From an uncultured Alphaproteobacteria bacterium (lineage in GTDB: Bacteria; Pseudomonadota; Alphaproteobacteria; RF32; CAG-239), in NCBI GenBank assembly GCA_944389095.1, contig CALXLC010000015.1, positions 1-32,911 of the forward strand: a stretch of DNA of 32,911 bases. The letters run 5' to 3'. Shown here one piece after another: positions 11,683-32,911 of this stretch. Below the pieces are notes generated by a model. The model was not told where the DNA came from. It worked only from the letters and a program-made list of their open reading frames with translations, and did no database searches. Every line of letters starts with the position of its first letter. Position 1 is the first letter of the stretch. The position numbers were made by a program, and so were the translations under genes.

Positions 11683-11719
11683 AAAAAAATCCCGGCGGCC
11701 GATAAATGACCACCGGGAT
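11683..11719 (-). terminator. Terminator of variable-protein cassette 1
   Basis: On the minus strand ATCCCGG and CCGGGAT enclose a GC-rich loop region and end in a run of seven T. It starts 14 bases after the stop codon. A near-identical hairpin follows cassettes 2 and 3, and a fourth copy lies at 13930-13965. Besides ending transcription it might act as the hairpin found downstream of DGR variable repeats; that part is inference. Confidence 0.7.
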
Positions 11720-11732
11720 AAAATAAAAAAAG

Positions 11733-12398
11733 CTAAAAAGCGAGAGCACAACGAACGCGGCCATAGTTATTCTTACTGCCGTAGATGGATATATTGCCGT
11801 CGGACGGCCTGACGTCCCAGGCGTAACTGCTATTGTGCTCGGACGAAGACCAATACCAATTATACTTATCAAGCAATGGCCTATTAATCTTCTCAAGTGC
11901 TTTTTGAACAGCATCAAGATTTCTAAATATCTTGACCAATTCATCTCTGCTTGCCAAGAAAGCCTCTCCGGAACGAACACCGTCAAAAGCATACGCGGCA
12001 CACCATTCGGCCGCCTCCGCCTTTTTATTCTGCTTCCGAGCCGCTTCCAAAATCAAACGGGTATTCTCCCTGCCGTCTTCTCTGAAAGCATCGGCAACCA
12101 AATCATCGCCAGACCACGGCAACTTAGCTTCCCGCAACCCGAGAACCAAACCATGTTGCCTGCTGTCATCGACCCAGCCAACAACACCGGAAAGCTGTTT
12201 TTTCGAAAGAACCTCTGCCGAAATCGTCCCGTCAGAGTAATAATACATTCCAGGACAAACAACATCAGGTAATACAGCTTCTTCTGTTTCTTCAGAGTGA
12301 ACAGAAATTTTGCCAAAATACGCTGCTGCCGCTTCAGCGGTCAAACCTAAACTCTCTGCAACGGCTGCTAACACTTTTAACTTTTCATTTTTCTTCAT
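11733..12398 (-). CDS. Variable protein 1, DUF1566/C-type-lectin-like, probable DGR target
   Basis: A 221-residue protein. The N-terminus (MKKNEKLKVLAAVAESLGLT) continues into an Ala/Glu-rich helical stretch of about 34 residues absent from cassettes 2 and 3. Then comes a shared domain starting VVCPGMYYYSDGT and a helical middle. The C-terminal module runs YWSSSE, variable, AW, VRPSDG, variable, RVRCALAF. The variable core is 11760-11837. No signal peptide is visible. The start has an AT-rich leader without Shine-Dalgarno. Third codon bases in the core match cassette 3. Ligand-binding surface display by a lectin-like fold is the family expectation; the actual partner is unknown. Confidence 0.85.
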   Translation of the reverse strand: MKKNEKLKVLAAVAESLGLTAEAAAAYFGKISVHSEETEEAVLPDVVCPGMYYYSDGTISAEVLSKKQLSGVVGWVDDSRQHGLVLGLREAKLPWSGDDLVADAFREDGRENTRLILEAARKQNKKAEAAEWCAAYAFDGVRSGEAFLASRDELVKIFRNLDAVQKALEKINRPLLDKYNWYWSSSEHNSSYAWDVRPSDGNISIYGSKNNYGRVRCALAF

Positions 12399-12438
12399 AA
12401 TTATAGGGTTTAAGTTAATAATTCGCTTTCTACCCAAC

Positions 12439-12467
12439 AAACTAAATCACATCCGCCTTTCTGTCAA
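12439..12467 (-). promoter_or_regulatory. Promoter of cassette 1, degenerate -10
   Basis: TTGACA (12462-12467) with a 17-base spacer to TAGTTT (12439-12444). The same region upstream of cassettes 2 and 3 has TATACT, so this copy looks weakened. Confidence 0.5.
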
Positions 12468-12483
12468 GGACAAAATAGACAAA

Positions 12484-12522
12484 CAAAAAAAATCCCGGCG
12501 GCCGATAAATGACCACCGGGAT
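12484..12522 (-). terminator. Terminator of variable-protein cassette 2
   Basis: ATCCCGG (12492-12498) pairs with CCGGGAT (12516-12522), followed on the minus strand by a T-run. The sequence is almost the same as after cassette 1. Confidence 0.7.
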
Positions 12523-12535
12523 AAAATAAAAAAAG

Positions 12536-13099
12536 CTAAAAAGCGAGGACACAACGAACGCGGTAATAGTCGTTATTCTTATTGTAGCTGTACATGAAGC
12601 CGTCGGACGGTCTGACCCGCCACGCGCTGATATTATTGCCCTCGGACGAAGACCAATACCAATTATACTTATCAAGCAATGGCCTATTAATCTTCTTAAG
12701 TGCTTTTTGAACAGCATCAAGATTTTTAAATATCTTGACCAATTCGTCCCCGTTGGGCAAAAAAGCCTCTCCGGGTTGAATACCGTCAAAATCATACGCA
12801 ACGCACCATTCGGCTGCCTCTGCCTTTTTATTCTGCTTTTGAGCCGCTTCCAAAATCAAGCGGGTATTCTCCCTGCCGTCTTCTCTGAAAGCATCGGCAA
12901 CCAAATCATCGCCGGACCACGGCAACTTAGCTTCCCGCAACCCGAGAACCAAACCGTGCTTGCTGCTTTCATCGACCCAGCCGACAACCCCGGAAATTTG
13001 CTTCTCCGAAAGAACCTCTGCCGAAATTGTTCCGTCAGAGTAATAATACATTCCCGGACAAACGACACCTGCTAACGCTTTTATTTCATTTTTTTTCAT
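12536..13099 (-). CDS. Variable protein 2, DUF1566/C-type-lectin-like, probable DGR target
   Basis: A 187-residue protein, starting MKKNEIKALAG and lacking the Ala/Glu-rich insert of cassette 1. From VVCPGMYYYSDGT to YWSSSE it is almost identical to cassette 3: about 18 base changes in about 400 by my hand count. The variable core (12563-12640) nevertheless differs at most variable residues. Its pattern of third codon bases differs from cassettes 1 and 3 but agrees with the right-edge genes. No signal peptide and no Shine-Dalgarno; strong promoter at 13139-13167. The C-terminal RVRCVLAF is invariant, as expected for the anchor side of template transfer. Confidence 0.85.
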   Translation of the reverse strand: MKKNEIKALAGVVCPGMYYYSDGTISAEVLSEKQISGVVGWVDESSKHGLVLGLREAKLPWSGDDLVADAFREDGRENTRLILEAAQKQNKKAEAAEWCVAYDFDGIQPGEAFLPNGDELVKIFKNLDAVQKALKKINRPLLDKYNWYWSSSEGNNISAWRVRPSDGFMYSYNKNNDYYRVRCVLAF

Positions 13100-13138
13100 A
13101 ATATATATAATTTATTTATAATTCATTTTCTACCTGAT

Positions 13139-13167
13139 AGTATAAATCACATCCGTCTTTCTGTCAA
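13139..13167 (-). promoter_or_regulatory. Strong sigma70-type promoter of cassette 2
   Basis: TTGACA (13162-13167), exactly 17 bases, TATACT (13139-13144). The ATG at 13099 lies about 40 bases downstream behind an AT-rich leader. Confidence 0.7.
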
Positions 13168-13184
13168 GGACAAAATAGACAAAC

Positions 13185-13223
13185 AAAAAAAATCCCGGCT
13201 GCCGACAAACGGTCTACCGGGAT
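13185..13223 (-). terminator. Terminator of variable-protein cassette 3
   Basis: ATCCCGG (13192-13198) pairs with CCGGGAT (13217-13223) with a T-run on the minus strand. The loop side differs from the cassette 1 and 2 copies while the stem is kept. Confidence 0.7.
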
Positions 13224-13236
13224 AAAATAAAAAAAG

Positions 13237-13842
13237 CTAAAAAGCGAGGACACAACGAACGCGGTAATTGCCATCCTTATTGGTGAAGTTGGTCATACTG
13301 CCGTCGGACGGTCTGACGCCCCAGGCGTTATAGTAACTGTACTCGGACGAAGACCAATACCAATTATACTTATCAAGCAACGGCCTATTAATCTTCTTAA
13401 GTACTTTTTGAACAGCATACGGCCAATTAATCTTCTTAAGTGCTTTTTGAACAGCATCAAGATTTTTAAATATTTTGACCAATTCGTCCCCGTTGGGCAA
13501 AAAAGCCTCTCCGGGTTGAATACCGTCAAAATCATACGCAACGCACCATTCGGCTGCCTCTGCCTTTTTATTCTGCTTCCGAGCCGCTTCCAAAATCAAG
13601 CGGGTATTCTCCCTGCCGTCTTCTCTGAAAGCATCGGCAACCAAATCATCGCCGGACCACGGCAACTCTGTTTCCCGCAACCCGAGAACCAAACCGTGCT
13701 TGCTGCTTTCATCGACCCAGCCGACAACGCCGGAAAGCTGTTTTTTCGAAAGAACCTCTGCCGAAATCGTCCCGTCAGAATAATAATACATACCGGGACA
13801 AACGACACCTGCTAACGCTTTTAATTTTTCATTTTGTTTCAT
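13237..13842 (-). CDS. Variable protein 3, DUF1566/C-type-lectin-like, probable DGR target
   Basis: A 201-residue protein, MKQNEKLKALAG then VVCPGMYYYSDGT, otherwise like cassette 2. A 39-bp direct duplication (13382-13459) repeats 13 residues, AVQKALKKINWPY then AVQKVLKKINRPL, and stays in frame. The variable core is 13264-13341. Against cassette 1 there are 23 differing bases in 78, only two at third codon positions, both A/G. No signal peptide, no Shine-Dalgarno, strong promoter at 13883-13911. Confidence 0.85.
   Translation of the reverse strand: MKQNEKLKALAGVVCPGMYYYSDGTISAEVLSKKQLSGVVGWVDESSKHGLVLGLRETELPWSGDDLVADAFREDGRENTRLILEAARKQNKKAEAAEWCVAYDFDGIQPGEAFLPNGDELVKIFKNLDAVQKALKKINWPYAVQKVLKKINRPLLDKYNWYWSSSEYSYYNAWGVRPSDGSMTNFTNKDGNYRVRCVLAF
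13382..13459 (-). repeat. 39-bp in-frame tandem duplication
   Basis: Two 39-base units (13382-13420 and 13421-13459) differ at only a few bases. They lie inside variable protein 3, just upstream of its variable core, and add 13 residues of an amphipathic helix. Cassettes 1 and 2 have one unit. Confidence 0.85.
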
Positions 13843-16373: not shown

Positions 16374-16901
16374 ATGAATAAGATTTGTAAAGTACTTTTT
16401 TACACGGGAGTTCTGATAATGAATACCGGGTGCCACACTCAGGTGCAGCCGACCATTGTGCCTGCTGTTGAAGTTAAACAACCGGTCAAACACGAGCTTG
16501 ATGTTATCGGCGGCGTGGAGCCTGTTTATGTTCTGCCGATTAAAGCTCCCTTCCCGGCACGAATTGACACCGGCGCCGAAACCTCCTCAATTGACGTTAC
16601 CCAGATGAAAACTTTTGAACGCGACGGCGAGAAATGGGTGGCATTTAACCTTGACCATGACGGCAACGGCGAAAAGCACCGTTTTGAGAAAAAAATTGCC
16701 CGCCGCACCGTTATTCGCCGGGCGGGTAAAGATGAGTACCGCATTGTGGTCAACATGGACGTCAAAATCGGCAAAGAACTAATCAGTACCGAATTTACCC
16801 TTGCCGACCGCACGAAATTTACTTATCAGGTGCTTATCGGCCGTAACATTCTCAACGGACGTTTCATCGTCGATCCGTCGGTCGAAAATACTTTACACTA
16901 A
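16374..16901 (+). CDS. Retropepsin-like aspartic protease lipoprotein (RimB-type, PF05618)
   Basis: A 175-residue protein with a signal ending in lipobox MNTGC (Cys20), so a periplasmic lipoprotein. The catalytic motif is D65-T-G-A in FPARIDTGAETSSID. The C-terminal LIGRNILNGRFIVDPS is the hallmark of the family often labelled 'ATP-dependent zinc protease', which is really retropepsin-like. It is first gene of an operon with an inactive transglutaminase/membrane protein and an ATP-grasp ligase, a triad that recurs in proteobacteria. The substrate is not known to me; the ligase product is a reasonable guess. Confidence 0.88.
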   Translation: MNKICKVLFYTGVLIMNTGCHTQVQPTIVPAVEVKQPVKHELDVIGGVEPVYVLPIKAPFPARIDTGAETSSIDVTQMKTFERDGEKWVAFNLDHDGNGEKHRFEKKIARRTVIRRAGKDEYRIVVNMDVKIGKELISTEFTLADRTKFTYQVLIGRNILNGRFIVDPSVENTLH

Positions 16902-16919
16902 CTTTTGAGAAGATTATCC

Positions 16920-18455
16920 ATGTTAAGAAAATTTGCTTCGGTTCGCTTCAGCCTTTCGGTTTTGCTGGTGTTGTCGGTTATTTTTGCGGCATACAGCATT
17001 TATTACAAAACAACTTACTGGGGTTTTAACTTTGCTCCGGGGCAAAATTCTGACGTCTGGACCATTGAAGCGCATATTGCCTTTGAACCGACCGGCGAGC
17101 CGATTAAGGTTACCCTCACAACACCTCAGGACAGCAATGCCTTCAAGATTTTGGAAGAAAACGTTATTGCCGATGGCTATAAATCTAAAAAAATCGACGG
17201 CGAAATTTCTCAACTTGTTTTGCAATCTCCGGCACAGACAAAATCTCAGGATATCTATTACCGGGTCTTGTTGTTTGATAATATTGACACGCGCGGCAAA
17301 ACCAAAGCTCCCAGGCCCGAAAAGCCCAAAAAACCGATTTTTGACGAACAACGGATGGCTGCGGCCAACCAAATTCTGGAAATTGCCCAAAAGCAGGAAG
17401 GCGATGCCGTGGCGCAGGTTATCCGTCTGTTGAATCAAGTGCCGGCCGATCCGACCGTGCAATCTTATCTGCCGCTCAAAAAAACACAATCGGACATGTT
17501 TGAGACGACTAAGGATCTGCTTGCGCTCAAAGGTATTCCCGCGCGTGCCGTGCGCGGTTTCCGCCTGGAAGAAAACCGCAAATCGGTTGCTCCCGACCTG
17601 ATGCTGGAGGCCTATATCGACAATCAATGGAAAATGTATAATCTGACCACTGCCGACAAAGGACTTCCGGAGAATTTTGTAGTCTTTCAACGCGGCGGAA
17701 AATCTTTGATTGATGTGGAAGGCGGCGAAAATTCCAGCATAAAATTCTCGGTCTTGAAATCCGTAACCTCTTCCATGGGACTGGCCGGTAAGCGCGCTCA
17801 ACTGGCCGGACAGAAGTCGCTGTTTGACTACTCGGTTTACAACCTGCCGCTGGCCGCGCAAAATACCCTGAAATGGCTTTCAATCTTCCCGCTCGGAATT
17901 CTGGTAACGGTTTTGATGCGCAATGTTGTCGGCGTGCAGACGATGGGAACGTTTACGCCCATGCTGCTGGCCATGGCGCTGATTAAAACCGGTTTTTGGG
18001 CCGGCCTCATCTGCTTTTCGCTGATTATCGGCATCGGACTGCTGCTGCGCTTTGTCCTCTCCAAGCTTAATTTGCTGCTGGTGCCCAGAATTGCGGCAGT
18101 GGTTATTTTTGTGATTTTGATTATGCAGATGTTCACGGTTTTCGGTTTTCAGTTTAAGCTGAATATTGCGCAATCCGCGGTCTTTTTCCCGATTATCATT
18201 ATGGCGTGGATTATTGAAAGAGCATCCATCACCTGGGAAGAAGACGGGCCTCTTAATGCCGGAAAGGAAATCTTTTTCAGCGTTCTGGTGGCTATTGTGA
18301 CTTATTTTGTAATTAACGACGAATATATCCGCCATATTATGTTTGCGTTTAACGAGCTTAATCTGGTGATTTTGTTTGCGGTGATGCTGCTCGGAACTTA
18401 TACCGGTTACCGATTGACGGAACTGAAGCGTTTTCAACCGCTTAAAAAGGGCTGA
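16920..18455 (+). CDS. Inactive transglutaminase fused to 7TM domain
   Basis: A 511-residue protein. It has an N-terminal membrane helix (about 8-27), a periplasmic transglutaminase-like domain (to about 315) and a C-terminal block of about seven membrane helices (about 325-500), starting WLSIFPLGILVTVLMRNVVGVQTMGTFTPMLLAMAL. This matches the 'inactive transglutaminase fused to 7 transmembrane helices' family. A Cys-His-Asp triad is not apparent, consistent with lost catalysis and a binding role. I prefer ATG 16920, with GAGAAG upstream, over a TTG at 16905. It starts 18 bases after the protease and ends 6 bases before the ligase. Confidence 0.88.
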   Translation: MLRKFASVRFSLSVLLVLSVIFAAYSIYYKTTYWGFNFAPGQNSDVWTIEAHIAFEPTGEPIKVTLTTPQDSNAFKILEENVIADGYKSKKIDGEISQLVLQSPAQTKSQDIYYRVLLFDNIDTRGKTKAPRPEKPKKPIFDEQRMAAANQILEIAQKQEGDAVAQVIRLLNQVPADPTVQSYLPLKKTQSDMFETTKDLLALKGIPARAVRGFRLEENRKSVAPDLMLEAYIDNQWKMYNLTTADKGLPENFVVFQRGGKSLIDVEGGENSSIKFSVLKSVTSSMGLAGKRAQLAGQKSLFDYSVYNLPLAAQNTLKWLSIFPLGILVTVLMRNVVGVQTMGTFTPMLLAMALIKTGFWAGLICFSLIIGIGLLLRFVLSKLNLLLVPRIAAVVIFVILIMQMFTVFGFQFKLNIAQSAVFFPIIIMAWIIERASITWEEDGPLNAGKEIFFSVLVAIVTYFVINDEYIRHIMFAFNELNLVILFAVMLLGTYTGYRLTELKRFQPLKKG

Positions 18456-18461
18456 CACAAC

Positions 18462-19427
18462 ATGTGGAATTGGCTGAAACAATTTGCTAAACCCTCAGAG
18501 CTCCGGGCTGCCGGTGTGTTGGGTATGAATCGGCGCAATTACAACATCATTGCCAAACACAACAACCGGAGATTGTTTCCGCTGGTGGACGATAAGGTTA
18601 AAACCAAAGAACTGGCCAAACAATACGGTATCAATACTCCCGGCCTTATCGGCGTAATTGCCCATCAATATGAAGTAAAGGATATTTTTAAGATTATCGG
18701 ACGGCGCAAAGAATTTGTGATTAAACCTGCGCAGGGAAGCGGCGGCAAGGGTGTTATGGTTATTGTCGGTTCCGAAAGCGGCTGGTTTGTGACGGCCTCC
18801 CGAAAAAAGGTCGGATACAAACATATTTATCAGCATATTTCCAATATCTTAAGCGGGTTGTACAGTCTCGGCGGACGTTATGATTCCGCCGTGATTGAAG
18901 AACTGGTGCATTTCTCCGATATTTTTAAGGATTACAGTTATCAGGGCGTGCCCGATGTGCGGCTGATTGTTTATAACGGCTACCCGGTGATGGCGATGAC
19001 CCGGCTGCCCACGGCCGAATCTGAGGGACGCGCCAATCTGCATCAGGGTGCGGTCGGCGTCGGTCTTGATATCCGGACCGGACATGCCCTGCACGGCGTT
19101 CAGCGCAATAAACCGATTGAAAAGCATCCGGATACGGGGGCAAATCTGATGAACATTCAGGTCCCCTACTGGAAAGACCATCTGCTTATCGGTGCCAAGG
19201 CTTTTGATATGACCGGGCTGGGGTATTTGGGCGCAGATATCGTGCTCGACGCGCAAAGAGGACCGATGATGCTGGAACTTAATGCCCGGCCGGGACTGGC
19301 AATTCAGATTGCCAACGGCTGCGGTCTGGCACGGAAACTTAAACTGGTGGAAAAATATTATCCCACAAACCTGACGGCGGAAGAACGGGTTGAGTTTGTG
19401 CTGAGCGGCGTTGATTTTGAAAAATAA
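18462..19427 (+). CDS. RimK-related alpha-L-glutamate ligase-like ATP-grasp protein
   Basis: A 321-residue cytoplasmic protein. ATP-grasp signatures are FVIKPAQGSGGKGVMVI (about 85-103), the acidic VIEELV, DVRLIVYNGYPVMAMTRLP, and the Mg-binding LGADIVLDAQRGPMMLELNARPGL near 265-292. It belongs to the RimK-related group that adds an amino acid, probably glutamate, to an acceptor carboxylate using ATP. The acceptor is unknown. Last gene of the operon with the retropepsin and 7TM proteins, it suggests synthesis in the cytoplasm and handling or trimming of the product outside. Confidence 0.88.
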   Translation: MWNWLKQFAKPSELRAAGVLGMNRRNYNIIAKHNNRRLFPLVDDKVKTKELAKQYGINTPGLIGVIAHQYEVKDIFKIIGRRKEFVIKPAQGSGGKGVMVIVGSESGWFVTASRKKVGYKHIYQHISNILSGLYSLGGRYDSAVIEELVHFSDIFKDYSYQGVPDVRLIVYNGYPVMAMTRLPTAESEGRANLHQGAVGVGLDIRTGHALHGVQRNKPIEKHPDTGANLMNIQVPYWKDHLLIGAKAFDMTGLGYLGADIVLDAQRGPMMLELNARPGLAIQIANGCGLARKLKLVEKYYPTNLTAEERVEFVLSGVDFEK

Positions 19428-31986: not shown

Positions 31987-32742
31987 TTAAAACGCGAGAA
32001 CACAACGAACGCGATAAATGCTGGAGGACGTATTGTAGTCGCTCATGCCGCCATCGGACAGTCTCACAACCCACGCACTGTAGCTGGACTTGGCCGCGGA
32101 CGAAGACCAGTAGGCTGAATTACTACTGAGTTGCATCTTCGACAATTTTTGAAGTCCTAAGTTAATAGCCTCATAACTGAAATTGGTGACATATAATTCA
32201 CCCGCTGCCGGTAAGTACCAGCCGCTGCTGCCCGTACCACTGGAGACCGGCTTGTAACTGTTACAATACTCTGCCGCCGGATGCGATTGCCTGTCATTTA
32301 TTAAACATTGTGTATTTGCCGCACCTCTAAAGTCTGTTTGTGCCGATGAACTACTGCTGTTATCTGTTAAACACGAAACAAAATAACTAGAGTCGCCCCA
32401 TTCTGTCTCTGTCTCCTCAAGCGCCACGGCAAATCTTGTCGAACCTTCGACATAGGCCACCACACCGACGGCTGTTTTACCGGAAATAACATCCCATGAC
32501 ACGGTTCCGTCAGAATATAAAATCATGCCGGGTTCCGGGTTCGCTGTAGAACCTCCGGTCGCTGCGCACCAGACCTGGTTTGTATTGAAGGGGCATTTAA
32601 TCATGTCGGTGCCTTCGCAGTCGGAAGCGGATTTGGTGTAGCCCATGGCGTTGCAGTCCGCCGGGACGCAGGTCGCCTGTGCCTGAAACGAGGCCAACAC
32701 CGCAACCGATACTCCGGCCAATAATTTATTCAACTTTCTCAT
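31987..32742 (-). CDS. Secreted variable protein 4, Cys-rich, DUF1566-like, probable DGR target
   Basis: A 251-residue protein. It begins with a signal peptide MRKLNKLLAGVSVAVLASFQAQA and a Cys-rich module (CVPADCNAMGYTKSASDC, then IKCPF). The same core domain as cassettes 1-3 follows (PGMILYSDGTVSWDVISGKTAVGVVAYV), then a DUF1566-type stretch (GWYLPAAGEL). It ends YWSSSA, variable, SAW, VRLSDG, variable, RVRCVLAF. The variable core (32014-32094) has one extra codon. AGGAG precedes the ATG. Unlike cassettes 1-3 it is exported and has a Shine-Dalgarno. It lies 29 bases after the next family member, probably in one operon. Confidence 0.82.
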   Translation of the reverse strand: MRKLNKLLAGVSVAVLASFQAQATCVPADCNAMGYTKSASDCEGTDMIKCPFNTNQVWCAATGGSTANPEPGMILYSDGTVSWDVISGKTAVGVVAYVEGSTRFAVALEETETEWGDSSYFVSCLTDNSSSSSAQTDFRGAANTQCLINDRQSHPAAEYCNSYKPVSSGTGSSGWYLPAAGELYVTNFSYEAINLGLQKLSKMQLSSNSAYWSSSAAKSSYSAWVVRLSDGGMSDYNTSSSIYRVRCVLAF

Positions 32743-32771
32743 CGCTTTTCTCCTAAAAACTTCCCTAATTT

Positions 32772-32911
32772 CTAAAACGCAAGGACACAACGAACGCGGT
32801 TACTGAAGTTAGCCTTACCGCTGTGGCCCATAGCACCGTCGGACGGTCGCACAACCCACACGTTGTTAGCATTGAGCTCGGACGAAGACCAGTACCAATT
32901 GCTGCTAAGCT
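32772..32911 (-). CDS. Variable protein 5, C-terminal fragment, probable DGR target
   Basis: Only the last 45 residues are in the window; the gene continues beyond the right edge. They run NWYWSSSE, variable, VW, VVRPSDG, variable, RVRCVLAF, ending in TAG. The variable core is 32799-32876. In the last twelve variable codons its third bases match cassette 2 at 11 of 12 positions, although the residues differ. It is upstream partner of variable protein 4. Confidence 0.8.
   Translation of the reverse strand, partial: LSSNWYWSSSELNANNVWVVRPSDGAMGHSGKANFSNRVRCVLAF

Follow-up and report, generated by a model that had tools for sequence, protein, structure and literature searches.

The three tandem genes of the window (i.e., the whole stretch of DNA analysed, which is the entire 32,911-base contig C15 of the 1.55-Mb, 60-contig draft genome G000) are, judging from their sequences, almost certainly remote targets of a DGR carried by the same genome. 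Alignment showed each VR to copy one of three templates, with changes at adenines of that template, and tandem paralogs as well as orthologs were found to hold VRs apparently derived from different templates. Continual change in an entire family of putative binding proteins seems to be driven by one error-prone RT.

All three tandem open reading frames of the first-pass annotation were confirmed in place, on the minus strand (Table 1). The 78-base core compared in that annotation was that of cassettes 1 and 3, both of which are TR-B type, and recounting reproduced exactly the reported 23 differences, two of them at third codon positions (both A/G) and 20 with A in one of the two genes. Upstream of the core, where about 18 differences in 400 bases had been estimated between cassettes 2 and 3, 19 of 459 aligned bases differed, in addition to a 42-column gap. 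Most of this gap corresponds to a 39-base near-duplication in cassette 3 (KKINWPYAVQKVLKKINRPLL, window 13380-13460). Overlooked in the earlier comparison were 9-11 third-position differences that separate cassette 2 from cassettes 1 and 3, which are present because cassette 2 was apparently copied from another template, TR-A. The product of cassette 1 has no signal peptide (by eye) and carries a lectin-like domain at its C terminus. The predicted fold of cassette 3 (pLDDT 86.6) is that of a C-type lectin and matched 4eps and the C-terminal domain of Legionella Lcl in a fold search; a PDB sequence search with this protein gave no match.

Table 1. Positions of target genes, VRs and hairpins in the window (contig C15) and of template repeats on contig C14
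Feature	Position	Strand	Remarks
Cassette 1 target gene	11733..12440	-	235 aa from TTG, 221 aa from ATG
VR of cassette 1	11739..11852	-	Template TR-B; 16 adenine and 3 other differences
Terminator-like hairpin after cassette 1	11689..11719	-	
Cassette 2 target gene	12536..13099	-	187 aa
VR of cassette 2	12542..12655	-	Template TR-A; 12 differences, adenines only
Terminator-like hairpin after cassette 2	12492..12522	-	
Cassette 3 target gene	13237..13842	-	201 aa; predicted C-type-lectin fold
VR of cassette 3	13243..13356	-	Template TR-B; 15 differences, adenines only
Terminator-like hairpin after cassette 3	13192..13222	-	
Fourth target gene	31987..32790	-	Signal-peptide-like start (MRKLNKLLAGVSVAVLASFQAQA)
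VR of fourth target	31993..32109	-	TR-C type; 20 adenine and 8-9 other differences; drifted
VR of fifth target gene, cut by contig end	32778..32891	-	TR-C type; 18 adenine and 5 other differences (gapped alignment)
TR-A	C14:31660-31773		Template repeat between avd and RT
TR-B	C14:31392-31505		Template repeat between avd and RT
TR-C	C14:31125-31241		Template repeat between avd and RT

The assignment of VRs to templates was clearest for the tandem cassettes. Cassette 2 was identical to TR-A at all 77 non-adenine positions and changed at 12 of 37 adenines (hypergeometric P = 3.4e-7), cassette 3 was identical to TR-B at all 75 non-adenine positions and changed at 15 of 39 adenines (hypergeometric P = 1.2e-8), and 16 of the 19 differences between cassette 1 and TR-B fell at template adenines (P = 1.3e-6). 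Thus, near-identical tandem genes appear to have been written from different templates. A single template for all window cassettes was rejected, as cassette 2 matched TR-A. Among 16 VRs that aligned without gaps, 44.7% of template adenines were changed, as opposed to 8.7% of C, 6.4% of G and 6.9% of T. Gapped VRs were assigned with a scoring scheme tolerant of adenine mismatches, so that P values for these VRs are not clean; the three cassettes align ungapped and are unaffected. That ordinary diversifying selection or recombination between paralogs made the variable cores, with no retroelement involved, is extremely improbable. Tandem near-identical paralogs can exchange sequence and the core changes are mostly at first and second codon positions, as such an origin would allow, but the cores equal non-coding templates on another contig at every base except adenine, in cassette 1 one template adenine is altered without effect on the amino acid (AGA to AGG), and bias was absent from paralogs without template similarity (C16:1982 and C24:1129).

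A search of the rest of the genome revealed a DGR-type RT gene at C14:29802-31067. The encoded protein was the only RVT_1 match in the genome (E = 1.2e-18), and its closest solved relative was 8ub7 (E = 4.6e-35), which we take to be the BPP-1 enzyme; the next relative was at 5e-11, and group II intron RTs were much more distant. Motifs IGNLSSQ and YVDD were read from the translation. Profile match, solved relative and motifs place this predicted RT in the DGR type. The order of the locus is avd, TR-A, TR-B, TR-C and RT gene, with avd on the same strand as the RT gene and both reading frames open. The avd product matched bAvd (PF22296, E = 5.7e-18) over the cut-off, and its best NCBIfam match, DivGenRetAVD (NF033474, E = 2.6e-16), was below the cut-off for that family. 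Each template of about 115 bases reads WSSSENNNNN...RVRCVLAL, is rich in AAC and AAT codons and ends in the shared CGCGTTCGTTGTG anchor that had been put forward as a search key. An adenine-poor tract, CCGCGTTCGTTGTGTCCTCGCT, is common to templates and VRs and is followed by CTTGG in the former and TTTTAG in the latter, which is the pattern of a putative DGR initiation site. Because RT and templates are located on C14 and the window genes on C15, the targets would be served in trans. The earlier proposal of DGR targets diversified in trans was thus borne out by the RT and templates on another contig, although its single template has to be replaced by three.

Protein and anchor searches combined with VR scans indicated approximately 24 VR-bearing genes with adenine bias, scattered over 1.55 Mb and including five in the window, these counts being approximate, as the ends of many contigs fall within target genes. 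Such ends, noted for C12, C57, C40, C47, C17 and C15, are what an assembler breaking on these repeats would produce; C12 and C57 have one VR in common. By best template, about 4 targets were A-type, 8 B-type and 11 C-type, and at most three non-adenine differences were counted in 13 of the approximately 24. The VRs lie at the 3' ends of predicted C-type-lectin-fold genes of two families, both of which matched Lcl_C weakly to just over the cut-off and use common templates. One family, predicted to be cytoplasmic, lacks a signal peptide (by eye), starts MKKNEKLKALA... and includes the cassettes of the window, and the other, predicted to bear a signal peptide, has a signal-peptide-like start (MRKLNKLLAGVSVAVLASFQAQA..., by eye). 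Relative to TR-C, one or two AAC codons are often missing from TR-C-type VRs of G000, as at C14:1989, C54:11552, C18:6138 and C24:22235, pointing to slippage or to an ancestral template that was shorter. In BPP-1 a hairpin is located just downstream of the VR. Most targets of G000 have a hairpin there too, but it looks terminator-like, and C16:1203, with one non-adenine change, lacks one of similar strength, so that a hairpin after the VR would not seem to be required as a rule.

VRs at C17, C21, C47 and C8 showed at least 8 non-adenine differences and look drifted or rarely rewritten, and paralogs at C16:1982, C24:1129 and C54:12354, without adenine bias, appeared frozen. Non-adenine drift in several VRs would fit a DGR that once diversified these genes and is now silent, the cores having since been inherited unchanged. 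This is very unlikely, however, given an RT and avd that are still open, with YVDD kept in the RT, the three VRs (cassette 2, cassette 3 and C40:231) that show no non-adenine change from a current template, and the different VRs found in two congeners at loci with 85-95% identical flanks.

The congener in question, G032, has an RT 98% identical to that of G000 and two templates adjoining it. The diagnostic codon before ATG is AAT in TR-B of G000 and AAC in TR-B of G032, and among TR-B-type VRs 7 of the 8 in G000 had T as the third base of this codon, while all 5 in G032 had C (Fisher P = 0.005), so VRs of each genome would seem to follow the templates of that genome. In two pairs of orthologs the VR type differed between species, being TR-B in G000 (C14:32753 and C35:33092) and TR-C in G032 (C131:6569 and C72:498, respectively), with gene body and downstream DNA conserved. 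For the pair C40:13631/C135:7918, the gene was 94.7% and downstream DNA 95.2% identical as opposed to only 67.8% for the VRs, the G000 copy being too drifted for firm assignment; a frozen paralog retained 96.5% identity in the VR region between G000 and G032. The same distribution of VR types could have arisen without template switching if recombination had moved genes or gene ends between paralogs that each kept one template. Pairs that also differ upstream of the VR would fit such an origin (C40:231 and C108:871, gene 71.7% identical; C47:231 and C121:28508, 72.8%), whereas gene bodies of the two pairs with different VR types are 85.8-88.8% identical right up to the VR, and cassettes 2 and 3 fit different templates at every non-adenine despite having so few upstream differences. 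Exchange among fixed gene-template pairs is therefore considered unlikely and template switching is preferred. A dedicated template for each target was likewise not favoured by the fits of the cassettes and the comparison of ortholog VRs.

Each template is preceded by a 108-base leader element with two hairpins, which is present in G000 in exactly three copies, one per template. In an alignment of 24 leader copies from nine loci, 92.6% of cells were paired, both sides changed in 14 pairs, and the covariation score was 0.417 compared with 0.222 (sd 0.015) for shuffled alignments, while slid controls collapsed. No Rfam family matched the leader in a search of the template region. The leader was detected in 24 of 152 genomes of the family, and arrays in these related gut Alphaproteobacteria contain as many as seven copies; among genomes drawn evenly over the class, only 3 of 385 had it. 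Azospirillum sp. CAG:239 has four tandem templates, and seven leader units precede the RT gene of a relative in L071 807-2600 (the same array as G066:C129 and L210), the second of which looks degenerate and is poorer in AAC and AAT. In relatives with a single template, the leader is kept 5' of the template and only tens of bases separate the template from the RT gene, which indicates that the conserved structured part is the leader rather than a long 3' spacer. The leader may recruit RT-Avd. Further leader and template units of another scaffold (WSSTQNNNNDAWRVQLGSGAVSNNNKNN...) were noted away from the RT gene in G032 (L162, approximately 2290-2530 and 2660-2905; L204, approximately 130-380); a template with this scaffold was not found in G000, where an orphan target end of the same scaffold lies on C1 (L020 1501-2058).

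By analogy with known DGRs, RT and Avd would reverse-transcribe template RNA, making errors at adenines, and the resulting cDNA would take the place of the corresponding 3' end in any of the target genes, with the common 3' tract that lacks adenine and a 5' anchor probably serving as guides. Variable, putatively ligand-binding lectin-fold proteins would be the outcome. The two-hairpin leader may make each leader and template unit an independent substrate, so that a target could switch template between rounds. Our judgement is evenly divided on a broader model of a modular template library, in which the 5' leader of each unit recruits RT-Avd, tandem duplication gains and loses units (from one to seven) and any unit can rewrite any target. 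If this model holds, the proteins sampled by the cell, cytoplasmic and exported alike, would vary in fixed scaffold as well as in residues, and, if template choice is free, DGRs would alter the scaffold of a binding site in addition to its residues.

DGRs as such, targets remote from the RT and one two-template DGR have been described before; what seems to set the present system apart is its modular leader and template array, how many targets one RT serves, and template swapping. The DGR of Bordetella phage BPP-1 (mtd-avd-TR-brt) resembles the present one in the order of avd, template and RT, in adenine-specific change, in a lectin-fold target end and in its RT, the closest solved relative, but relies on a single template and a cis target, where G000 has three templates and approximately 24 remote targets. 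In BPP-1, the structured spacer that recruits the RT is 3' of the template (PMC12875486), as opposed to the conserved structure 5' of each template in this system, and the covarying leader is a concrete RNA candidate for the role in RT-Avd recruitment held by that spacer. Scattered targets of one RT also occur in Treponema denticola, where up to seven are distributed over the chromosome (PMC4891356), with one template per genome and fewer targets than here. The DGR of Stenotrophomonas sp. SKA14, which combines two templates with six VRs spread over different ORFs and likewise has DUF1566 (Lcl_C) targets (PMC6642488), has fewer templates and targets, and no leader array or template swapping was described there. 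Many remote targets and action in trans are shared with Trichodesmium (18 TR/VR loci; PMC8867640) and Thiohalocapsa (15 target genes; PMC10907252), which have two DGR RTs or nine DGR loci, in contrast with one RT and a template array. No report of a leader and template array or of template swapping between species was found in the papers accessible to the search, a set to which many subscription journals and all bioRxiv preprints do not belong. A search model based on the leader picks up multi-template arrays however distant their targets, which surveys of short contigs miss, a limit stated for its own method in PMC8144416. Overall, a small gut bacterium of 1.55 Mb seems to spend one retroelement on approximately 24 lectin-fold genes, choosing among templates.

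Elsewhere in the window, at 16374-19427, is a trio of genes the products of which presumably resemble a retropepsin-like protease, a transglutaminase-like membrane protein and a RimK-type ligase.
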